Positions 6,555 to 58,131 of a stretch of DNA of 64,000 nt are shown in pieces; position 1 is the first letter of the stretch; the number at the start of each line of letters is the position of its first letter. This DNA is from Thermoplasmata archaeon (GTDB lineage: Archaea; Thermoplasmatota; DTKX01; JAHFTX01). A program made the translations under genes and the position numbers. Where the stretch lies: NCBI GenBank assembly GCA_023265395.1, contig JAHFTX010000004.1, positions 1 to 64,000 on the forward strand, in the 5' to 3' direction. The notes below the pieces were generated by a model. That model did no database searches and was not told where the DNA came from. It saw only the letters and a program-made list of their open reading frames with translations.

Positions 6555-7862
6555 CTACGCCTTGGCGCGGCCCCTGCTCTTGCCTTTGGGGGGGCCAGGG
6601 CCGGCCTGCTGCGCGGTCGGTCGCGCGGGACCATCGTCCTCCGGTCGCATCGCGTGCCCCTCGAGCCAGCCAGCGACCTCGCTGGGGAGGCGACCGGTGG
6701 AGGTGGCGCCGAGGATCAGTACGCCCTTGCCTGAGGCGACCGCCGCCTGCAGCTGCTCGAGGACGGGGACGAGCGCCCCCTCGGGCGCTGCGGTGGCGAG
6801 CTCTTGGAGGTCATCGAGCAGGACCATCGCCCTGCCGTGGGTCTGGCCCAGGACGTCTTCGACGATGAAGGGCAGCATCTGCAGGTGCCCCTCGTTGGTG
6901 GGGTCCAGCTCGTCCTTGGTGGGCTGAGCGCTGAAGCGCAGCAGCGGGGTGGTCTGCAACGAGGTGCGCTTGCGCAGCGTCTCGGGGAGCGTGAAGACGA
7001 ATCCGATCCCGACCGCACCAGCGAGCACCTCGGAGGCGAATGCCATCTCTGCGCGCACCGCGCACCTCGAGGCATCGAAGAGGTAGACCCCTCCGTCGAC
7101 GAAGGTCCACAGCGGCTTGGAGGCACGACCCGAGCCCTCCTCGCGGGTGGCTTCGACGGCAAAGAGGCGGTAGCGGTGGATGGCGAAGAACAACCCCCCG
7201 CTGGTCGCCGTGGTGGCGATGATGGAGAAGGCCGGCAGGTTCTTCCCCAGGATCGTCAGGATGATGTCGTTGACGACCCCGACGACGATGGGCACGGCAA
7301 AGCCGAACGTCACCACCAGGGATTGGTGGAAGAAGGTCGCAGTGGGTGCCGCCACGGTGAATCGAATCAGCAGGACGAGGTCGACGACGAGGATGAGGAT
7401 CATCGACAGGCCGACGATGTTGAAGGCCCAGCGGGCATCCTGGAACCAGAAGGTCAAGCTGCCGCTCAGCAGTACCACCAACGCCCAGCAGCCCAGCGCA
7501 TAGCGCAGGGGTACCGAACGCGCCCAATCGTCGTTGCGGGTGAAGCGGAGGACGGTGATCAGGGTCAGGGGCAGCAGCAGCGCGATGCCCAGCCACTGAC
7601 CGCCGCTGATGCCGTAGGCGATCCAGTCGCGGTCGATGCCCGTGGCCGCTTTGAGCTGCCCGGCGCGGTCGACCAGCTCGAAGTACCGGCCCGGCAGGTC
7701 GAAGAGGTTCCACACGACGATGCACACTTGCATCAGCAGGAAGGTGCGGACCAGCTTGGTCTGTGGCAGCCCCAGGCGCAGGTACACGAGCATCGCGACG
7801 TTGGCGGCCAGTGCCAGTGCCGCAAGGGGCAGCAGCCACAGCTGCAGAGGCTGGATTGCCAC
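6555..7862 (-). CDS. Seven-helix membrane receptor-like protein with C-terminal DUF835 domain
   Basis: 435 residues from GTG 7862; AGGAGA lies 7 bases before it. The N-terminal ~230 residues hold seven predicted helices in the style of the histidine-kinase N-terminal 7TM region (first helix LWLLPLAALALAANVAMLVYL; sixth VVTFGFAVPIVVGVVNDIIL). There is no H-box or ATPase domain. The cytoplasmic part (about 245-400) matches DUF835: a V/ALDxLQ-type strand (RAMVLLDDLQELAT), then a helix and a final strand (GVLILGATSTGRLPSEVAGWLE). DUF835 is common in Thermoplasmatota, often linked to sensory modules, with unknown biochemistry. The tail is Pro/Gly/Lys-rich (PPKGKSRGRAKA). Probably a membrane sensor; ligand and output are unknown. 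The stop codon is TAG. Confidence 0.75.
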   Translation of the reverse strand: MAIQPLQLWLLPLAALALAANVAMLVYLRLGLPQTKLVRTFLLMQVCIVVWNLFDLPGRYFELVDRAGQLKAATGIDRDWIAYGISGGQWLGIALLLPLTLITVLRFTRNDDWARSVPLRYALGCWALVVLLSGSLTFWFQDARWAFNIVGLSMILILVVDLVLLIRFTVAAPTATFFHQSLVVTFGFAVPIVVGVVNDIILTILGKNLPAFSIIATTATSGGLFFAIHRYRLFAVEATREEGSGRASKPLWTFVDGGVYLFDASRCAVRAEMAFASEVLAGAVGIGFVFTLPETLRKRTSLQTTPLLRFSAQPTKDELDPTNEGHLQMLPFIVEDVLGQTHGRAMVLLDDLQELATAAPEGALVPVLEQLQAAVASGKGVLILGATSTGRLPSEVAGWLEGHAMRPEDDGPARPTAQQAGPGPPKGKSRGRAKA

Positions 7863-27966: not shown

Positions 27967-29187
27967 CTACTGCACCACGCCAAAACCGATCAGACGGAAG
28001 CGGCCGCCCAGTCGCCGGCTGACCGCGACACGGGCACCATCGTCGACGCAGAGCGGGAGCTTGAGGTGGAGGTCGACGATCTTGTCGCGTGCGGAACGGA
28101 CCATCCCCACCGTCGTCGCAGAGCCGGCATTGAGCAGCACCGGCTCGTTGGCACGCAGGTTGTCGACCTGCTGCTCCCCGGCGCTGCCAGCCACTCGCTC
28201 GAGCAGGGTGATCCCAAGGGTCAGGCTCTCGCGCACCGGCGGCAGCGTCCCGGGGACGCCGACGATCTTGCCCAGCATCGAGTCGCCCTTGGTCTTGGCC
28301 GGGTCGAGGTCGGTGGCCAGGCCGACCAAACCCCCCGGATGGACCTTCTTCATCGTCCGGCCGCCGCTGACGAGGGAGTTGACCCGCGTCACCAGGCCCT
28401 CGTACCCGCGAGGTCCCTTGTTCTCGGGTTGGATCTCGATCTCCTGGCCTGCAGCGAGCTCCCCCTGGAGCACCGAGCCACCGAGCACGCCCCCGACGAG
28501 GTTCTGGGGCAGGGTGCCGGGCTTGTTGATGTCAAAGGACCGGGCGACGATCAACCGCATGGGGAGCGTCGTGTCCACCTTGGGTGAGGGGATCAGGTGC
28601 TCCATCGCGCCGATGAGCGCGTCGATGTTGGCGTTGTGGTGGGCGCTCACCGGGATGATGGGCGCCTTTTCAGCGACCGTCCCGGCGACGAAGTGGCGGA
28701 TCTCCTCGGCAGATTCCTTGGCGCGAGCGTCACTGACCAGGTCGACCTTGTTCTGCACCACGATTATTCGCTCCATGCCCATGATCTCCAGGGCCATCAG
28801 GTGCTCCCGTGTCTGCGGCTGGGGGCAGGGTTCGTTGGCAGCCACCAACAGCAGCGCCCCATTCATCAGCGAGGTCCCGCCGAGCATGATCGCCATCAAT
28901 GTCTCGTGGCCCGGGACATCAACGAAGGAGATCGCCCGCTCGAGCGTGCACTTCTTCCCGCTGGTCGGATGGGTCTCGGCGATGCTATAGCAGTCGGGCT
29001 CTGGCAACTCGGGGTCGCGGTAGACCGCGGTGTCGGCGTAGCCGAGCTTGATGGAGATGCCGCGCTTGATCTCCTCAGAGTGCTTGTCGGTCCACTCGCC
29101 GGTGAGCGTCTGGGTCAGCGTGGTCTTACCATGGTCGACGTGTCCGACCATCCCGACGTTGACTTCCGGCTGTTGGGGGACCTTCAT
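27967..29187 (-). CDS. eif2g: Translation initiation factor aIF2 subunit gamma
   Basis: GTPase subunit that carries initiator Met-tRNA to the small ribosomal subunit. 406 residues with G1 GHVDHGKTTLTQTLTG, switch I TDKHSEEIKRGISIKLGY (specific to eIF2-gamma/SelB), G3 VDVPGHETLMA, G4 NKVD and the following beta-barrels (EIEIQPE; VGMVRSARDKIVDL). The zinc knuckle normally inserted before the G3 strand is reduced: only one Cys on each side (PDCYSIAE, GKKCTLE) with a nearby His, not two CxxC pairs. GGAG lies 5 bases before the ATG. It lies between rps6e and the PIN gene. Confidence 0.96.
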   Translation of the reverse strand: MKVPQQPEVNVGMVGHVDHGKTTLTQTLTGEWTDKHSEEIKRGISIKLGYADTAVYRDPELPEPDCYSIAETHPTSGKKCTLERAISFVDVPGHETLMAIMLGGTSLMNGALLLVAANEPCPQPQTREHLMALEIMGMERIIVVQNKVDLVSDARAKESAEEIRHFVAGTVAEKAPIIPVSAHHNANIDALIGAMEHLIPSPKVDTTLPMRLIVARSFDINKPGTLPQNLVGGVLGGSVLQGELAAGQEIEIQPENKGPRGYEGLVTRVNSLVSGGRTMKKVHPGGLVGLATDLDPAKTKGDSMLGKIVGVPGTLPPVRESLTLGITLLERVAGSAGEQQVDNLRANEPVLLNAGSATTVGMVRSARDKIVDLHLKLPLCVDDGARVAVSRRLGGRFRLIGFGVVQ

Positions 29188-39561: not shown

Positions 39562-40362
39562 TTACCGGTTCCAATACCGTGCCTGCGGGTGCAGTGTCAC
39601 GACCGCCGCCGTCGACTGCTCGGGCAGCCACGCCGCGCCGGCGGTGAGCTCCAACCCGATGCGCGAGGTCTGCAGCAGGCGCTCGACGATCCGCTGCTCC
39701 TCCGTGCTGGGGCAGCTGGGGTAGCCCCAACTGTAGCGCTTGCCGACGGCGGTGGGCAGACGGAGCTGCGTGCGCACACGTCGGTGGGTCCACTCGGCGG
39801 CCGCCTCAGCCAGCTCGACGGCAAGGCCGTGCAGGTAGAGGTACTCGGTGTAGTCGTCGGCCGCCATCAACGCGTCGCAGGCGATGGTCGCTCCTGGGCC
39901 GACCGTGACCGCCTGCAGGGGCAGCACCTGCAATCCCGAGGGATGGTCGGTGGCGAAGTAATCGGCGACCGAGGTCCCTTCGCGGCCACGTGGGAAGGAG
40001 AGCACCGCGTCGGGGGTGCGTTGCGGCGGGGCTATCGATGATCCCTCCTGCGGGGTGGGGATGAACACCTCCAGGCTCTCGCCCCTTGGTCGACACAAGA
40101 AGTACCCGTGCACACCGCGGGGAGTGAGCACACCGCTGGTGCGGTGGGTCTGCTTGAGGCGATCGAGGATGGGCAGGTAGATCCCCTGCCGCAGCCTCTC
40201 CCACTCGGCGGCACTGGCGTTCTTGGGCTTGGCGCGCCACCAGCCTATGAGCAGGTCGTGCTGGTTGATCAGGTCCAGCAGTTCCTCCAGCGGGAGCGGG
40301 TCGATCAGGGCAGTGCCCCAGAAGGGCGGCTCAGCGCGAGGAAGGGGCGGAATGGCTGCCAC
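39562..40362 (-). CDS. Separate MetH activation-domain protein
   Basis: 266 residues homologous to the C-terminal AdoMet-binding reactivation domain of cobalamin-dependent methionine synthase: ADYFATDHPSGLQVLPLQAV, YTEYLYLHGLAVELAEAAAE, and the AdoMet-site strand GKRYSWGYPSCPSTEEQRIV followed by TSRIGLELTAGAAWLPEQST. It rescues oxidised cob(II)alamin by reductive methylation. Here it is a separate gene, as known from Thermotoga. GTG 40362 is chosen because GGAGG lies 9 bases upstream and the region before it has no similarity; the gene overlaps the end of metH by 32 bases, so they are coupled. Confidence 0.88.
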   Translation of the reverse strand: MAAIPPLPRAEPPFWGTALIDPLPLEELLDLINQHDLLIGWWRAKPKNASAAEWERLRQGIYLPILDRLKQTHRTSGVLTPRGVHGYFLCRPRGESLEVFIPTPQEGSSIAPPQRTPDAVLSFPRGREGTSVADYFATDHPSGLQVLPLQAVTVGPGATIACDALMAADDYTEYLYLHGLAVELAEAAAEWTHRRVRTQLRLPTAVGKRYSWGYPSCPSTEEQRIVERLLQTSRIGLELTAGAAWLPEQSTAAVVTLHPQARYWNR

Positions 40363-42967
40363 CGATGCCGACCTCCGCGTGAAGGGTTGCGACGTGGTCG
40401 TCATCGTCGCCGCCGCGTGAGAGGGCCACCAGCTCATCGAGGATGGCCAACCCCTCGAAGGCGTCCTTGGCATAGTGGGCTCCTCCGGCATATCCCTCAC
40501 CAATCCGCCCGACGAAGCGACGGTTGATCGCCGCACCACCGCAGATCAACGGGTAGCGCAGCCCCTGCTCCTGGAGCAGCTTGGCGATCAGGGGCATCTG
40601 CTGGGAGGTGGAGACCAGCAGGGCTGACAGGCCGATGGCATCGGCATCGAGCTCCTTGGCCTTCTCGAGGATCACCGTGGCCGGGACCTGCTTGCCCAAG
40701 TCGACGACCTCGTACCCGTTGTTGACCAGGATGGTCCGCACCAAGTTCTTCCCGATGTCATGGACGTCACCATAGACCGTGGCGAGCACCACGGTACCCT
40801 TGGTGTAGCTGGCGTTGCGCTCGAGCAGCGGCTCGAGGTGGGCGACGGCCACCTTCATCAGCTTGGCGCTCTCGAGGACGAAGGGCAGGGCGATGTTGCC
40901 TGCGCCGAACTGGTCGCCGACGGTGCGCATGGCCGAGATGAGGACATCGTTGATCAGGTCCAGCGGCGGGACGACCTGCCGGGCGTCATCGAGCAGCTGG
41001 ATGAGGGTGCGACGGGCGGTCCCCACCTCCTCCTTGCGATGGACGATGGCGTAGTGGACCGCTTCGGTGGCGGTCAGCTGGTCCTCGGCAGCGAGCTTCT
41101 CCGAGACCCGTCCCTCCTCGGCGGTGCTGTCGGCAAAGTGGCCAAGGAACGCCTCCAGGGCCTTGGGGTGGCGGGCAAAGAGCAGGTCTTCGGTGACCTG
41201 GCGCTCCTCCCGACCGATGTCCGTGATCGGCAGGATATGCTTGGCATCGACGATGGCGGCATCCAACCCGGCCTCGACCGCATGGAACAGCAGCAGCGAG
41301 TTGAGCACGCGCTTGCCGCGGTCGAGGTCGTTGCTCAGACCGAAGCTGCAGTTGCTGATCCCCAGGGAGATGTTGATCTGCGGGTAGGTGGCCTTGATCG
41401 CCCGGATCGCGTCGAGGGTCTGGACCCCGGCGTCGGCGTAGGCAGGGTCGCCCGTGACCAGGGGGAAGGTCAACGGGTCGATGATGAGGTCGTGCACCGG
41501 CACGCCATACTCCTTAGCGAGCCCCACGAGCCGGTCGGTGACCTCGCACTTGCGCGCAGCGCTCAGCGCCATCCCCGCGCTGTCGATGGTCAGACCCACG
41601 ACCAGGGCGCCATGGTCGCGGACGACCTCGAGGATGCGACGGCCCTTCTGCTCATCCTCGAGGTTGAAAGAGTTGACCACCGCGCGACCGGGGAAGCGCT
41701 CCAGTGCGGCGGCGATGACCTCTGGTTCGGTGCTGTCGATCTGCAGGGACGCGTCGACGGAGCCGCCGTCGGAGCGCCAGAGCGCGTCGACCGCGAACTG
41801 GACGCACGCGAGCTCCTCGAGGTCGTTGTGGGCGGCGGTCAGGTCGAGCAGCTGCGCACCGCTGTCGACCTGCTTCTTGGCGATCGCCCGGATCGCCGCG
41901 GCATCCCGCGCCGCGAAGGCCTCGCGGGTGCGGCCGTAGCCCAGTGCGTTGAGCCGTTCGCCGATGAGCAGGGGCGGGGGGTCCTGGCGCACGGACACCC
42001 GGCGGAAGGGGGAGCTGATGCCGGCAGCAGGACGGGTGACCGTGCGCCGCGGCTGCAGCCCGTCGACGCCGTCCCGCAACAGCCGGATGTGCTGCGGCGT
42101 CGTACCACAGCAGCCGCCGACGAAGTTGATGCCCAGCTCCTCGACGTAACGCCGCAGCGTACGCTCCATCTCCTGGGCGGTCAGGCCGTAGAAGGAGCGT
42201 CCGTCGACGTTCTCGGGGATCCCGGCGTTGGGGATGCAGCTGACCGGCAGGTCGGTGTGGCTGCTGAGGTAGCGCAGGGCATCCTCCATCTCGATCGGGC
42301 CGGTCGAGCAGTTGAGCCCGACCGCATCGACGGGGAGTCGCTCGATGAGGCTGAGCAGCGCGCTCATCTCGGTGCCCAGGAGCATGCGCCCCTGCTGGAC
42401 CGAGACCGAGATCATCACCGGCAGCCGGGCGGGCAGCTGCGCGTTGACCACTGCAAGCCCGGCGATGGCCGCCTTGACCTCAAGGAGGTCCTGCGAGGTC
42501 TCGACGAGGAAGAGGTCGACGCCCCCCTTGGCCAGCGCCCGCCCCTGGGCGGCGACGCAGTCGCGCAAGGTGGCGTAGTCGGACTGACCAAGCGAGGGGA
42601 GCAACCCCGTCGGGCCGATGCTCCCAGCGATCCAGTGGGGGCCGGGCGCGCCCACCGCAGCGATCGCAGCACGCGCCAGCTCCACGGCGGCGACGTTAAC
42701 CTCCTCGAGCCGGTCACCCAGCCCATACTCGCGGAGCTTGGGCAGGTTGCCGCCGAAGGTGTTGGTCTCGAGGACTTCGGCGCCCGCACGCAGGAAGTCC
42801 TCGTGGATCCCTTGGATCATCGATGGCTGGACGAGGTTGAGGTAGTCGTTGCACCCAAGCTTGCCGCCATAGGTCTGTTCCGTCGGGCGGTGCGCTTGAA
42901 TAGAGGTCCCCATCGCGCCATCGAACACCACGACCCGCCGACGGGCCTCGCGCAGCAGGTCGGTCAT
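40331..42967 (-). CDS. metH: Cobalamin-dependent methionine synthase, catalytic part
   Basis: Transfers methyl from methyl-tetrahydrofolate (or tetrahydropterin) via methylcobalamin to homocysteine. Of 878 residues, the first ~300 are the homocysteine-binding domain with zinc ligands Cys220 (VGLNCSTGP) and GGCCGT (284-289); ~335-600 is the pterin-binding domain (SGAQLLDLTAAHNDLEELAC, VVNSFNLEDEQKGRRI); then a four-helix cap; then the B12 domain with GDVHDIGKN (His736 as cobalt ligand), SALLVSTS and LICGGAAI. The fourth activation domain is missing and is encoded next door (39562-40362). ATG 42967 follows AGAGG by 6 bases. Canonical MetH is uncommon in archaea. Confidence 0.95.
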   Translation of the reverse strand: MTDLLREARRRVVVFDGAMGTSIQAHRPTEQTYGGKLGCNDYLNLVQPSMIQGIHEDFLRAGAEVLETNTFGGNLPKLREYGLGDRLEEVNVAAVELARAAIAAVGAPGPHWIAGSIGPTGLLPSLGQSDYATLRDCVAAQGRALAKGGVDLFLVETSQDLLEVKAAIAGLAVVNAQLPARLPVMISVSVQQGRMLLGTEMSALLSLIERLPVDAVGLNCSTGPIEMEDALRYLSSHTDLPVSCIPNAGIPENVDGRSFYGLTAQEMERTLRRYVEELGINFVGGCCGTTPQHIRLLRDGVDGLQPRRTVTRPAAGISSPFRRVSVRQDPPPLLIGERLNALGYGRTREAFAARDAAAIRAIAKKQVDSGAQLLDLTAAHNDLEELACVQFAVDALWRSDGGSVDASLQIDSTEPEVIAAALERFPGRAVVNSFNLEDEQKGRRILEVVRDHGALVVGLTIDSAGMALSAARKCEVTDRLVGLAKEYGVPVHDLIIDPLTFPLVTGDPAYADAGVQTLDAIRAIKATYPQINISLGISNCSFGLSNDLDRGKRVLNSLLLFHAVEAGLDAAIVDAKHILPITDIGREERQVTEDLLFARHPKALEAFLGHFADSTAEEGRVSEKLAAEDQLTATEAVHYAIVHRKEEVGTARRTLIQLLDDARQVVPPLDLINDVLISAMRTVGDQFGAGNIALPFVLESAKLMKVAVAHLEPLLERNASYTKGTVVLATVYGDVHDIGKNLVRTILVNNGYEVVDLGKQVPATVILEKAKELDADAIGLSALLVSTSQQMPLIAKLLQEQGLRYPLICGGAAINRRFVGRIGEGYAGGAHYAKDAFEGLAILDELVALSRGGDDDDHVATLHAEVGIGGSHSAPSSR

Positions 42968-43250
42968 GGACGCCTCTAGAGGCAACAGCCTTCGCCACAG
43001 CTGCCACCGGGCGGCGTGATTGGCACCTTCGGGGGGTGTGCCCCGCGAGCGAGTCGTCCCATGCCTTCCCCCTTGGATGCCAACGACTTAAGCATAACGT
43101 GCATAACCGCTGATAAATACGCAACTATGAGTAGTGCTTTGCCCCGTCCCTCCAGGACACCCTCGGAGATGGATCCCCCGGCTGAGGACCAGCCGCGGGG
43201 ACAAGAACACTCATGCCCACCGCCGACTGGTCACCACAGAGGATTGCGGC
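42968..43250. promoter_or_regulatory. Divergent promoter region between metH and a secreted protease
   Basis: Contains an AT-rich core: GATAAATA (43112-43119, readable as TATTTATC on the minus strand) and ACTTAAGC (43086-43093), both possible TATA boxes. A 7-base direct repeat, GCATAAC at 43092-43098 and 43101-43107 (period 9), lies next to them and is a candidate operator. The metH leader (~90-120 bases) has small GC hairpins but no riboswitch I can identify. Confidence 0.45.
43092..43107. repeat. Short direct repeat GCATAAC x2, possible operator
   Basis: Two exact 7-base copies with a 2-base spacer, overlapping the predicted core promoter. A two-copy repeat at 9-base period is small for a helical-phase operator, so this may be chance. 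Confidence 0.35.
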
Positions 43251-51635: not shown

Positions 51636-52094
51636 CTATTTTGTCGCCGGCGCACCGTGCGGACGTACGAGCAGTACCGAGGCGGTGCACCGCTGGAGCA
51701 CCGATTCGGCGACCGAGCCGAGGATCATCGGGGCCCAGCCGCGGCGACCGTGGGTCCCCATGACGATCAGGTCACATCCGATCCGTGTGCTGACGCGCTC
51801 GACCTCTTCGGCGATGATGCCATGCACCAGATGAGTGTGTGCGCGCACCCCGCGGGAGCGTGCGGTCCCGGCCGCTTGTTCGAGTACACCGCTCCCGTGC
51901 TCTTCGAGCTTCTCGAGCAGGCTCTTCTGCGCATCCAGGGGCAGCGCCTTGGGGGCTGCCTGCACGATTCGCCGGTCGATGACATGGATCAGGTCGATCT
52001 CGCCGCCGCTGCTGTGGGCATAGTCGATCGCATGGTCGAGCGCGCGCTGCGCGACGTCACTGCCGTCGAGGGGGACGAGCAGGTGGCGGAACAT
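51636..52094 (-). CDS. Universal stress protein (UspA), copy 1
   Basis: 152 residues of the UspA alpha/beta fold: start MFRHLLVPLDGSDVAQRALD, and the nucleotide-binding signature GTHGRRGWAPMILGSVAESV (G-x2-G-x9-G-S intact), so ATP binding is expected. UspA proteins are usually induced by starvation, oxidants or respiratory arrest. Last of five UspA genes on this strand; its ATG lies 4 bases after the next upstream copy's stop. Confidence 0.93.
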   Translation of the reverse strand: MFRHLLVPLDGSDVAQRALDHAIDYAHSSGGEIDLIHVIDRRIVQAAPKALPLDAQKSLLEKLEEHGSGVLEQAAGTARSRGVRAHTHLVHGIIAEEVERVSTRIGCDLIVMGTHGRRGWAPMILGSVAESVLQRCTASVLLVRPHGAPATK

Positions 52095-52098
52095 GCAC

Positions 52099-52575
52099 TC
52101 AGGCCCCTGCCGATGCGGCGGCCCCTTCGCGGACGATGAGCACCATCTCTGGGGCAAGCTGTGCCACGGCGTGCGCGACGCTCCCGAGCAGAACGCGCTG
52201 CAGTCCCGTGCGCCCGTGGCTCCCGATGACGATCAGGTCACACCCCTGCTCCTTGGCGCACGCCAGCAGGCGTTGTGCGATGATCCCCTGCTCGAGATGG
52301 GTGGTGGCGCTGACTTGATGGCGCTTGGGCACGGCCTCCGCCTCGGCCAACAGCGACTCCCCCGCAGCGTGGAGGGTCCGCACGATCTCCTCGACCATCG
52401 GTTGGAGGTGGACCATGCGGGCCGTCTCCAGCGCGCGCTGGTCGATCACATGGACCAGCACGAGCGTGCACCCGGGGTACTGCTTGGCGATGTGGCACGC
52501 GAAGTCGAGAGCCCGAAACGAGCAGTCGCTGCCGTCGAGGGCCACGAGGATCCGCTGGAAGCTCGTCGCTGCCAC
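52099..52575 (-). CDS. Universal stress protein (UspA), copy 2
   Basis: 158 residues: FQRILVALDGSDCSFRALDF, HVIDQRALET and an intact G-x2-G-x9-G-S signature (GSHGRTGLQRVLLGS). GTG 52575 is used because the domain starts five residues later and it follows the previous UspA gene by 11 bases. Part of the UspA array. Confidence 0.92.
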   Translation of the reverse strand: MAATSFQRILVALDGSDCSFRALDFACHIAKQYPGCTLVLVHVIDQRALETARMVHLQPMVEEIVRTLHAAGESLLAEAEAVPKRHQVSATTHLEQGIIAQRLLACAKEQGCDLIVIGSHGRTGLQRVLLGSVAHAVAQLAPEMVLIVREGAAASAGA

Positions 52576-52586
52576 GGTGCCCCACC

Positions 52587-53024
52587 TCAGGGACGTACCA
52601 GCAGGATGGGCACGTCGGTCGTCGCAAGGACGCCTTGGGCGACACTCCCCAGGACGAGGCGGTCCCACCCCGTCCGTCCATGGGTCCCCATCAGGATCAG
52701 GGTCGTCTTGAACTCCTTGACGGAGGCGCCGATCTCGGCAGGGACGTAGCCGTTGCGCAGCTGGGTCGTGACCTTGACGCCCGCATCCTTGAATCGCTTG
52801 GCGGCCGCTGCGAGCACCTGCTCGCCCTCCTCGCGCATCTTGTCGGCGAAGAACGTGTAGTCAGGCTGGACATAGGAGGGCTCCGCCAGTACGTGGATGC
52901 TGTCATCGACGACGAAGACCAGCCGGACTTCGGCCTTGAAGCGCGTGGCGACCTCGATGGCCAAGGTGGTGGCTTTCGCAGCGGGCGGACTCCCATCGAT
53001 CGGGACCAGGATTCGTTCGAGCAT
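52587..53024 (-). CDS. Universal stress protein (UspA), copy 3
   Basis: 145 residues: MLERILVPIDGSPPAAKATT, VVDDSIHVLA and GTHGRTGWDRLVLGSVAQGV (ATP-binding signature intact). A strong Shine-Dalgarno (GGAGGT) lies 6 bases before the ATG. Follows copy 4 by 22 bases. Confidence 0.93.
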   Translation of the reverse strand: MLERILVPIDGSPPAAKATTLAIEVATRFKAEVRLVFVVDDSIHVLAEPSYVQPDYTFFADKMREEGEQVLAAAAKRFKDAGVKVTTQLRNGYVPAEIGASVKEFKTTLILMGTHGRTGWDRLVLGSVAQGVLATTDVPILLVRP

Positions 53025-53046
53025 CGATTGACCTCCGTTCAGACCT

Positions 53047-53478
53047 TCAACGGACCAGGAATACCGGGCACGGCGACTCTGCCAACACACCTTGGGCGAC
53101 GCTCCCCAGCAGCACGCCGGCCGCACCTGTGCGGTTATGGGTCCCCATGACGATCAGGTCGGCGCTGAACTCCTTTGCAGCGGTACAAATCTCGTGGGCG
53201 ACGACCCCCTCGGTGCCAAAGACGGAGACCGGGACGTCCCAGCGGGTGCAGCGCTCCTTGCCAGCCTCCAGCACCTCGCGGCCGCTGGCGCTCAACTGCT
53301 CGATGATCTTCGGCTCGGTAGGCGCCATAAGGCGGCGCACCGTCGCCGTGGTACGGTGGTCGACGACGTGCACCAGGCGGATCTTGCCCCGCGTGGTGCG
53401 GGCGATCGTCAGGGCATAGTCGAGGGCCTTGTCAGAGAGTTCACCGCCATCGAGGGCGACGACGATATGGTCGAACAT
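53047..53478 (-). CDS. Universal stress protein (UspA), copy 4, altered signature
   Basis: 143 residues: MFDHIVVALDGGELSDKALD and HVVDHRTTATVRRLM. The signature reads GTHNRTGAAGVLLGSVAQGV: the second Gly of G-x2-G is Asn, so ATP affinity may be reduced. GGAGGAG precedes the ATG by 3-4 bases. Lies 8 bases after the tandem UspA gene. Confidence 0.9.
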   Translation of the reverse strand: MFDHIVVALDGGELSDKALDYALTIARTTRGKIRLVHVVDHRTTATVRRLMAPTEPKIIEQLSASGREVLEAGKERCTRWDVPVSVFGTEGVVAHEICTAAKEFSADLIVMGTHNRTGAAGVLLGSVAQGVLAESPCPVFLVR

Positions 53479-53486
53479 CTCTCCTC

Positions 53487-54353
53487 CTACGCCGCCTCCC
53501 AGAGCGGTTCGCGCATCGGCACGACGATGACGGGTGCGGGGGAGTTGCCCACCACGTGGGCGCTGACGCTGCCCAACAACGCGCGGGCCAGGCGGCCGCG
53601 CCCGTGGGAGCCCATGACGATGACGTCGGAGCGCTCGACGAGCACGGCCTTGAGCACCTCGCGACCCGGGGGGTCTCCCACCAGCAGACGGGTGGCGGGC
53701 CGCACGATGCCCGAGGCCGCCATGGTGGCAGCGGCCTTCTCGATGAAGGCCTGGGGGAGCAGAGCCTTCTCCGGCGCGACGCACATCAGGGTGACGGTCG
53801 CGTTGCGTGTGCGACCGAGTGCTTGGGCCGTTCCCATGAGCGCTTGGGGGACCGCGCCCTCCTGCAAGGGCACGAGCACGCGCAGCCCCTCGGGGGACGC
53901 TTGGGAGAGCCGGTAGGGGGTGACCCCGACCTTGGCGGTCTGGGTCAGCAGCGCGATAGGGCTGTTGCGTAGGAGGTAATCGGCCATCGAACCGAACGCG
54001 TTGGCGCGGTAGCCGGTCTTCCCGTGGGTGCCGATGGCCAGCAGGTCACCGCCCGCTCGCTCTGCAGCAGCGAGGATCCCATCGGGGTAGCGGTCGATGA
54101 TCGCCTTGACCTCGACCTTGACGCCGTGGCCCTTGGCCATGCGCGTGACGGCGCTCAAGGCCGTCTCCGCCTCCTTGTGGAGCGCCGAGTACTGCGCCTC
54201 CTTGGTCTCGTCGATGAGGGTGAATGCGTGAAGCGTCGCCCCCAGGGACTTGGCCAGCATGGCCGCTTGCTCGGCGGCGAGGAGCGCGTGTTCGGAGCCG
54301 TCGACGGCGACGACGATCGAATCGAGGTCCAGTGTCGAGATCGCTTTGCCCAT
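53487..54353 (-). CDS. Tandem UspA protein (two domains)
   Basis: 288 residues, two UspA domains in series. Domain 1 (about 1-145): SIVVAVDGSEHALLAAEQAA, signature GTHGKTGYRANAFGSMADYL. Domain 2 (150-288): LRVLVPLQEGAVPQALMGTA, signature GSHGRGRLARALLGSVSAHV. Both ATP loops are intact. Start 54353 is preferred over 54359 because AGGAGGGG then lies 8 bases, not 2 bases, upstream. First UspA gene after the CBS protein; likely the same operon. Confidence 0.92.
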   Translation of the reverse strand: MGKAISTLDLDSIVVAVDGSEHALLAAEQAAMLAKSLGATLHAFTLIDETKEAQYSALHKEAETALSAVTRMAKGHGVKVEVKAIIDRYPDGILAAAERAGGDLLAIGTHGKTGYRANAFGSMADYLLRNSPIALLTQTAKVGVTPYRLSQASPEGLRVLVPLQEGAVPQALMGTAQALGRTRNATVTLMCVAPEKALLPQAFIEKAAATMAASGIVRPATRLLVGDPPGREVLKAVLVERSDVIVMGSHGRGRLARALLGSVSAHVVGNSPAPVIVVPMREPLWEAA

Positions 54354-54379
54354 GGTCATCCCCTCCTGATGTCGTGCAC

Positions 54380-54934
54380 CTAGCTCTCCCACGCGCAGTC
54401 GCTACAGAGCAGTCCGCCGTAGCGGAACAACAGAGCCTCTGATGCCTTGCCGCACTTGTCACAGACCCCTTCCTCGCTCTCGTCGGCCATCTGGTGCTCG
54501 GTGCCCGATGTCGTGGCGGAGAGGACTTCCTCAGGAGCCTTGCCGGTCAGATCGCGGAGGCTGATGATCCCGACGAGCTTGCCCTGCTCGGCGACCGGGA
54601 GGTGACGGATCCCCAAGTGGTCCATGCGCTCGAGGGCCTGGCGCAAGTCCATATCGGGCGTCGCGCAGAAGATCGGACTGCTCATGAACCGGCGCACCGG
54701 CACGGCCGAGGGCCGTTCGTCGAGCAACAGGAACCGCTGGGTGACGTCGCGTTCGGTCACAATCCCGACTGGGTGGCCACCACGCACGACCACGAGGGAG
54801 GCGATGCTGTGGTCCCGGAAGATCTCCGCCGCCCGGTACGCGCTGGTATCCTCCTCGATGGTCACGACCTTCCGCTGCATCGTCTCACGGACGGTCGTCG
54901 GTTCCTTCTCTGGATTCTTGTGCGCTTTGGCCAT
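54380..54934 (-). CDS. CBS-domain pair protein with C-terminal zinc ribbon
   Basis: 184 residues. Two CBS motifs (Bateman module) at ~15-70 (VVTIEEDTSAYRAAEIFRDH; GIVTERDVTQRFL) and ~80-135 (CATPDMDLRQALERMDHLGI; GIISLRDLTG) bind adenine nucleotides such as AMP, ATP or AdoMet. A zinc ribbon follows (CDKCGK, 15 residues later CSDC) that probably docks to a partner or nucleic acid. Start ATG 54934 follows GAGGGG by ~6 bases. Located between the response regulator and the UspA array on the same strand; a nucleotide-level sensor is inferred. Confidence 0.88.
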   Translation of the reverse strand: MAKAHKNPEKEPTTVRETMQRKVVTIEEDTSAYRAAEIFRDHSIASLVVVRGGHPVGIVTERDVTQRFLLLDERPSAVPVRRFMSSPIFCATPDMDLRQALERMDHLGIRHLPVAEQGKLVGIISLRDLTGKAPEEVLSATTSGTEHQMADESEEGVCDKCGKASEALLFRYGGLLCSDCAWES

Positions 54935-56547: not shown

Positions 56548-57933
56548 TTAATGAGCAGATACTTCCGACGGCTCGGATGCCGGCGGGCCATCGACGGGGA
56601 GCACCAGCGAGAAAAGCGCACCGGCGCCCGAGCCCAAGGGCTCGAACCGGTTACGGTCAGGATGGGGGATGGGCGAGGTCAGGGACAACTCGCCGCCATG
56701 GAGGTGGGCCAGCTCGGCGCAGATCGCAAGACCAAGGCCCGGGCTCGAGGCCGTCAATCGCTCGGCCTCCGGGGTGCGATAGAACCGCCGGAACACCAGC
56801 TCCTGGTACTCCGCAGGGACGCCTGGCCCACCATCGGCCACCTCGAGCACATAGGCCTCGCCGACGCCCTGAGGCAGCTCGTCTGGGCGTGCCCGACGCA
56901 AGCCCACGACGACCCTCTGACTGCCGCTGCCATACTTGATGGCATTCTCGATCAGGTTCCCGAGCAGGTCCAGAAGCCGCTCGCGATCCGCGCGGACCTG
57001 TTGGTTCTCCAACCCCTCCTCGATGAGGGCACCCAGGGTGACGCCCTGTTGCTGGGCGCGCAGCTGCGCGCTGTCCATGAGGTCGCGGATGACTGCTGCC
57101 AGCTCGACCCCGCTCAGGCGCAGCAGCAGCTGGTCCTGGTCGATCGTCGAGATGAGCAGCAGGCGCTCGAGCAGGCTATGGAGCCGCTCCCCCTGCTGCA
57201 CGCAGATCCGCAGGTAGCGCTCGATGTCCGGAGGAATCTCCCCCGCCTTGCCCGATTCGATGAAACGGAGGTATCCGAGGATGGTAGTCAACGGCGTGCG
57301 CAGCTCGTGAGAGATGTTGCTGATGAAGCGGTTCTTGAGGGCGTCCTGCGCGGCGAGCGCCTCCAATCGCTGGCGCATCCGCACGGTGTCGGTGGGTTCC
57401 TCGCCCAGGTCGACGATGCCCCCGATCGTCTGGCCCAGCCAGCGCAGGTAGTCTCCGCCCACGACGGGTCGGACTTCGTCGATGCGGAAGATCAGGTACG
57501 AGGAGGCATCCGCCCAGAAGGGGTCGAAGACGTCCCCGTGCTCCTCTCGAAGCTGGTAGAGCGCTGCCAGCTCCTGGTAGCGCGGGGAACCGAGGAAGCA
57601 CTGTTCCATCAGCGTGCAATGGAGACGCAGTCCGCGCAGGAAGTAGGTCTCGCGTTCCGGCTCGACGACCAGGAGGGCCATCTGCTTGGTCTGCAGGATG
57701 TTGCGGAAGGAGCGCTGCAGGAAGACGTGGGCCATGACGATGTGTTCGGGGTCGAGCACCATGCAGGTCCCCACGAACGCGACGTTGGGCGATCCGTCGG
57801 TGGTACTGGTGGCAATCACCTTGACGGTCTTCTCGGAGCGCAGGAACTCGTGGATCTGCTCATGGCCCAGCGGTGGGACCAGCTGGGCGAGCGCTCGCTG
57901 GTTCTCCGAGAGTTCCAGCAAAGGTGCTCGCAT
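56548..57933 (-). CDS. Histidine kinase with PNPOx-like split-barrel sensor
   Basis: 461 residues. The N-terminal ~30-160 match the pyridoxamine-phosphate-oxidase-like FMN-binding split barrel (VKVIATSTTDGSPNVAFVGT, NILQTKQMALLVVEPERETY, GLRLHCTLMEQ), used by flavin, heme or F420 proteins; no membrane helix is present. The kinase core follows: H-box FISNISHELRTPLTTILGYL with His209, N-box LIENAIKYGSG (~327), G1 VADGGPGVP and G2 SSPGLGLAICAE. ATG 57933 is 27 bases from a TATA box (leaderless); ATG 57939 is possible. A soluble redox or flavin/heme-sensing kinase is inferred; fusion of PPOX to a histidine kinase is unusual. Confidence 0.85.
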   Translation of the reverse strand: MRAPLLELSENQRALAQLVPPLGHEQIHEFLRSEKTVKVIATSTTDGSPNVAFVGTCMVLDPEHIVMAHVFLQRSFRNILQTKQMALLVVEPERETYFLRGLRLHCTLMEQCFLGSPRYQELAALYQLREEHGDVFDPFWADASSYLIFRIDEVRPVVGGDYLRWLGQTIGGIVDLGEEPTDTVRMRQRLEALAAQDALKNRFISNISHELRTPLTTILGYLRFIESGKAGEIPPDIERYLRICVQQGERLHSLLERLLLISTIDQDQLLLRLSGVELAAVIRDLMDSAQLRAQQQGVTLGALIEEGLENQQVRADRERLLDLLGNLIENAIKYGSGSQRVVVGLRRARPDELPQGVGEAYVLEVADGGPGVPAEYQELVFRRFYRTPEAERLTASSPGLGLAICAELAHLHGGELSLTSPIPHPDRNRFEPLGSGAGALFSLVLPVDGPPASEPSEVSAH

Positions 57934-57966: not shown

Positions 57967-58131
57967 TGTGGCCATTCACCTGAGAACGTGCATAGGCTAC
58001 CCTGGAAGGATGAGCAAATGCATGAACTCCCCTGGAGGGGCGAGGGGGGTGCCTCTCGAGGGCACGGGCCGAGGCGCGCAGACCACTGACCTTAAGACCC
58101 CAGGGCGACCGAGCGGAGGAACCGGTGTCCC

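Follow-up and report, generated by a model that had tools for sequence, protein, structure and literature searches.

Our analysis of a 64,000-nucleotide stretch of DNA from a Thermoplasmata archaeon (the window) identifies a histidine kinase that has a split barrel of the PNPOx class as its input domain. Both the fold and the kinase architecture are supported; the novelty lies in the pairing of this sensor with a kinase core, a real and apparently rare combination that turned up once among the 800 or so genomes searched. We propose, with a probability of about one half, that the protein is a cytoplasmic dimer in which a ligand held at the barrel interface – FMN being the likeliest – sets autophosphorylation, the phosphate then passing to a receiver protein. 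The cofactor itself, and redox sensing by the kinase, are matters that we infer.

Table 1. Features of the kinase gene and its neighbours, in window positions
Feature	Position	Strand	Basis and remarks
PNPOx-type split-barrel sensor histidine kinase gene	56548..57933	minus	461 aa from ATG at 57933; ORF list, Pfam
PNPOx-like split-barrel domain, about residues 22-160	57454..57870	minus	Pfam PNPOx_N, AF2 model, fold matches
Helical linker into HisKA, about residues 159-199	57337..57459	minus	modelled helices
HisKA dimerisation/phosphoacceptor domain, residues 200-266	57136..57336	minus	phosphoacceptor His209; Pfam, alignment
HATPase_c catalytic domain, residues 316-447	56593..56988	minus	N326, N330, D367-G369-G371, G399-L-G-L402
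Probable tandem winged-helix regulator, 370 aa	55363..56475	minus	unmatched in Pfam and NCBIfam; may be the output, judging by position
Receiver-only response regulator, 127 aa	54945..55328	minus	Response_reg E 5.2e-30; two genes downstream of kinase
Twin-CBS protein	54380..54934	minus	next in co-directional run

Reading frame and kinase core

An earlier note on this DNA had placed the gene correctly and left its strand unstated (Table 1). An in-frame ATG at 57975 would add 14 residues, giving 475 aa. The plus strand of the same interval also has a long open frame, which we set aside as lying antisense to a GC-rich gene. A frameshift or assembly error as the source of the fusion can be ruled out: the frame is single and uninterrupted, GC content per codon position stays coding-like across the junction and within the range of neighbouring genes, and the window sits in a contig of 117 kb. 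The host is an archaeon, since the window encodes aIF2-gamma (27967-29187); its genome, 88.7% complete, carries two heme-copper oxidase genes and the organism is therefore probably aerobic.

That the kinase core is a standard HisKA/HATPase core, as first proposed, is borne out by Pfam matches above the curated cut-offs for both HisKA (E 1.2e-16) and HATPase_c (E 3.2e-18) and by retention of every catalytic motif. The protein has the marks of a HisKA-type kinase – the phosphoacceptor H209 and the N (N326/N330), G1 (D367-G369-G371), F (F381) and G2 (G399-G401) boxes – and an alignment of 26 kinases from the host and related genomes shows no variation at His209, Asn326, Asn330, Asp367, Gly369, Gly371, Phe381, Gly399 or Gly401. 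We found no membrane segment, the highest 19-residue hydropathy being 1.25, in agreement with the proposal of a soluble kinase. The claim that sensor and core are joined directly does not hold: barrel and HisKA are separated by some 40 residues of helical linker, with helices at 159-169 and 181-199 in the AF2 model of the sensor, and in the full-length model, which is of high confidence from about residue 180, helix 181-226 runs unbroken from the linker into HisKA. Apart from its sensor the kinase is an ordinary one, with an intact core.

Two further genes of the window deserve mention in their own right. One (6555-7862, minus strand) encodes a protein with a HisKA_7TM sensor region in which neither HisKA nor HATPase is matched at the threshold applied. 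The other (40331-42985, minus strand) encodes a MetH-like methionine synthase (884 aa) whose match to the model covers positions 2-864 of 1182; because the match ends there, the protein seemingly lacks the C-terminal reactivation domain.

The sensor domain and its distribution

The case for the barrel begins with Pfam. PNPOx_N (PF01243) matches residues 25-107 (E 1.4e-7; 32.4 bits, cut-off 28.1) and, in a search of the whole genome, scores 34.9 bits for the kinase, its sole match in the host. A leave-one-out PNPOx profile, built from 37 relatives with the query excluded, gave E 9.9e-21 on residues 25-99 as against 3.7 for the best of 5000 shuffles, values that are mildly flattering given that the profile rows had been found using the query; the Pfam match is independent. 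Profiles drawn from archaeal or from proteobacterial PNPOx relatives alone also reach the sensor (E 6.7e-20 and 2.1e-10, respectively), and the motifs of the first barrel half are kept: T-x-D-G-x-P-N-V, G55 and R-S-x-R-N. Sequence homology to PNPOx is strong at residues 25-101 only and the leave-one-out profile gave no support over 102-160, so that for the barrel's second half we rely on the structure model.

That model, an AF2 prediction of residues 1-200 from an alignment of homologues (plasmid-derived rows left out), has split-barrel topology, with pLDDT mostly 80-93 over 21-160 except in a loop around 91-100. Its best fold matches are the FMN-binding protein 3in6 (Z 15.4), HupZ (15.2) and 2htd (14.8), followed by further FMN, F420 and heme split barrels of the PDB. 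The earlier note had named structure prediction and a fold search as the check on its proposal, with a PAS, GAF or unrelated fold as the outcome that would count against it; a split barrel was obtained. The proposed fold therefore stands, while its extent shifts from the first 130 or so residues to about 22-160. A full-length model built from kinase homologues only did not recover the fold: the sensor part has pLDDT below 50, so it offers no independent confirmation of the barrel, and the assignment depends on the PNPOx homologues. With that dependence, the modelling supports a sensor of the PNPOx class.

The fusion is apparently rare. A query with the PNPOx sensor found no counterpart in 60 relatives; most of what it matched in 389 genomes belonging to the phylum were stand-alone proteins, about 130-200 aa long, and 395 genomes from a second phylum gave frames of 166 aa or less. 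In neither set was a second PNPOx-kinase fusion found. The matches listed from a PF01243 search of the 389 genomes include a few long frames, and in the three examined (G336, G123 and G267) the PNPOx region follows an unrelated open frame, with no kinase. A scan of genome contigs gave one match, covering the kinase core only, and of the loci examined the window alone has a frame that joins kinase and PNPOx. The suggestion that no kinase with such a sensor has been characterised accords with the literature searched, the coverage of which is incomplete, and with a census of archaeal two-component systems that makes no mention of flavin, pyridoxamine or split-barrel domains (PMC5847659).

The sensor is at most 26% identical to any relative found and forms a long, isolated end branch (1.42) in a tree that does not place its origin. 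Stand-alone PNPOx-like proteins of the same phylum (about 134 aa) share the split barrel and the T-x-D-G-x-P-N and basic-hydroxyl-x-x-N motifs, but they lack the kinase, the linker and an insert at 102-108, and their identity to the sensor is about 26% at most. The nearest relatives, both in sequence (26% over 123 columns) and as multidomain proteins, are PNPOx-GAF proteins (WP_014249658.1 and WP_011428026.1, for example) of Alphaproteobacteria, with a few betaproteobacterial records. These have an N-terminal split barrel in a signalling-type arrangement, fused to GAF and to a C-terminal domain without assignment rather than to HisKA/HATPase, and apparently represent a signalling use of the fold.

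Two observations were made alongside the survey. Two genomes that share a genus each have a stand-alone PNPOx-like gene beside a histidine-kinase gene of opposite orientation (L013:1941-3218, L015:1927-3216). Two PNPOx-GAF proteins lie on alphaproteobacterial plasmids (L032:3923-5305, L033:3950-5302), each with a C-terminal domain of some 100 aa that has no assignment and with a 4-bp overlap with a small gene upstream; they may constitute an uncharacterised signalling family.

Candidate ligands of the barrel

The earlier note left FMN, heme and F420 as candidate redox cofactors, a reasonable hypothesis that our results narrow toward flavin or no cofactor. R74-S75 of the sensor occupy the K-T position of the stand-alone relatives and are followed by the conserved N78, so that R74-S75-x-R77-N78 reads as a phosphate-binding-like motif. 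Given this conservative replacement and the conserved Asn78 we infer that FMN is the likeliest ligand, a plausible assignment drawn from the residues themselves; most likely the barrel either holds a flavin or has a degenerate ligand pocket. Since the sensor is found in one genome, there is no conservation by which to judge the pocket.

The degenerate pocket leads to a different account, in which the barrel, having lost its cofactor, acts as a dimerisation module or receives some other small molecule, much as PAS and GAF domains bind many ligands: the kinase would be real, and no sensor of flavin or redox state. The extreme divergence of the sensor, a second half that the profile fails to recognise and a Pfam score barely over its cut-off all favour this account, but retention of the first-half motifs sits poorly with it, and we hold it to be somewhat unlikely.

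Heme is suggested by the best single-sequence matches, which are to HutZ (TIGR04110, E 2e-5; 3tgv, the best such match in the PDB, E 4.6e-4 over residues 26-152). A kinase built on a HutZ/HugZ/HupZ-like barrel, its activity set by the presence or redox state of heme at the dimer interface, would also fit the appearance of all three proteins among the fold matches, the heme-copper oxidases of the host, and the precedent of heme-based archaeal sensor kinases such as MsmS (PMC6944256). However, the TIGR04110 score of 24.4 bits is about a tenth of the family cut-off (225), Pfam finds no DUF2470 domain in the kinase, and the ligand residues of these heme-utilisation proteins – none a sensor kinase – are replaced. 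HutZ His63 (numbering of PMC3472187) aligns with Ser75 and HupZ His111 with Arg150, and residues 160-200 contain no His that could act as the HugZ-type C-terminal ligand. Heme bound through the known ligands is disfavoured because of these replacements, and we consider heme sensing unlikely overall, though HutZ Arg92 is matched by Arg103 or by His105 according to which alignment is used, so that other residues of the sensor could yet hold a heme.

F420 has still less in its favour. A barrel that binds F420 in the manner of Rv1155-type proteins would be in keeping with F420 split barrels among the fold matches (Rv1155 4qvb, Z 10.9; MSMEG_6526 4zky, Z 12.1; MSMEG_3380 3f7e, Z 11.9) and with a weak match to TIGR03618 (E 0.005), but scores for the F420-type families fall far below their cut-offs (TIGR03618 17.1 bits vs 79.05; TIGR04023 12.7 vs 85.6). 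CofD is needed for F420, and PF01933 was not found in the 88.7% complete host genome by a search that recovers it in control genomes. F420 is disfavoured on this account, and a kinase that reads it is most improbable.

A redox signal might also be read by thiols: Cys57, Cys106 and Cys112 of the barrel, two of them six residues apart on the same predicted strand, could form a redox-active disulfide to gate the kinase, whether or not a cofactor is bound, and a thiol-based archaeal kinase, RdmS, is known (PMC6944256). With no relatives available by which to judge conservation of the cysteines, we regard such a switch as very unlikely.

A possible signalling route and its setting

Under the reading that we prefer, an FMN-type ligand at the interface of a dimeric kinase, the two barrels would pair to create two interface pockets for a phosphate-bearing ligand, most likely FMN, gripped by the loop R74-S75-x-R77-N78. 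When the ligand's occupancy or redox state changed, the barrel pair would move; the shift would travel through the helical linker (159-199) to the HisKA bundle and alter autophosphorylation of His209. From there the phosphate would pass to the receiver-only protein, which gene order makes the likely partner of the kinase, and the 370-aa neighbour could serve a redox or stress response as its transcriptional output. Genes for OsmC, which lies upstream of the kinase together with a divergent DUF2061 gene, for the twin-CBS protein and for a run of USP-like proteins provide supporting context nearby. The fuller claim – of a new class of sensor-kinase input, in which a flavin-binding split barrel turns the occupancy or redox state of cytoplasmic flavin into kinase activity, having arisen by fusion of a stand-alone PNPOx-like protein with a kinase core in an aerobic archaeon – we advance more tentatively.

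The two halves of the 370-aa protein are alike and could each be read as a winged helix, an interpretation prompted by this internal repeat. Its relatives are present in 17 of the 31 phylum genomes searched; their surroundings, out to about 1.5 kb, contain neither HK nor REC genes, and a conserved kinase-regulator-receiver operon was accordingly rejected. The 72-bp gap between its gene and the kinase is AT-rich and could hold a separate promoter. For both reasons a pathway shared by kinase, 370-aa protein and receiver, suggested by position, is plausible and no more. At 51636-54392 (minus strand), beside the twin-CBS gene, there is a run of at least four genes whose products look like universal stress proteins.

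Regulatory roles for split barrels are known in the plant GluTR-binding protein (GBP), which regulates through protein-protein contact, and in Bacillus PaiB, a stand-alone regulator; neither is a kinase. A heme-bound PaiB structure (9vyc) is among the PDB entries of our fold search, and GBP is reported to be heme-responsive (PMC11014987). The archaeal kinases MsmS and RdmS resemble the present protein in being soluble, and their autophosphorylation is redox-dependent (PMC6944256), but they sense through PAS/GAF domains (heme or thiol) and lack a phosphorylatable His, whereas the kinase described here has His209.

In archaeal histidine kinases sensing falls mostly to PAS or GAF domains, and for nearly all of these kinases the input has yet to be identified (PMC5847659, PMC6944256). 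Input through a split barrel would add to these a further sensor fold, one that is normally an enzyme or a carrier of cofactors, and the small, soluble kinase would provide a direct testing ground for flavin- or heme-dependent control of kinase activity.
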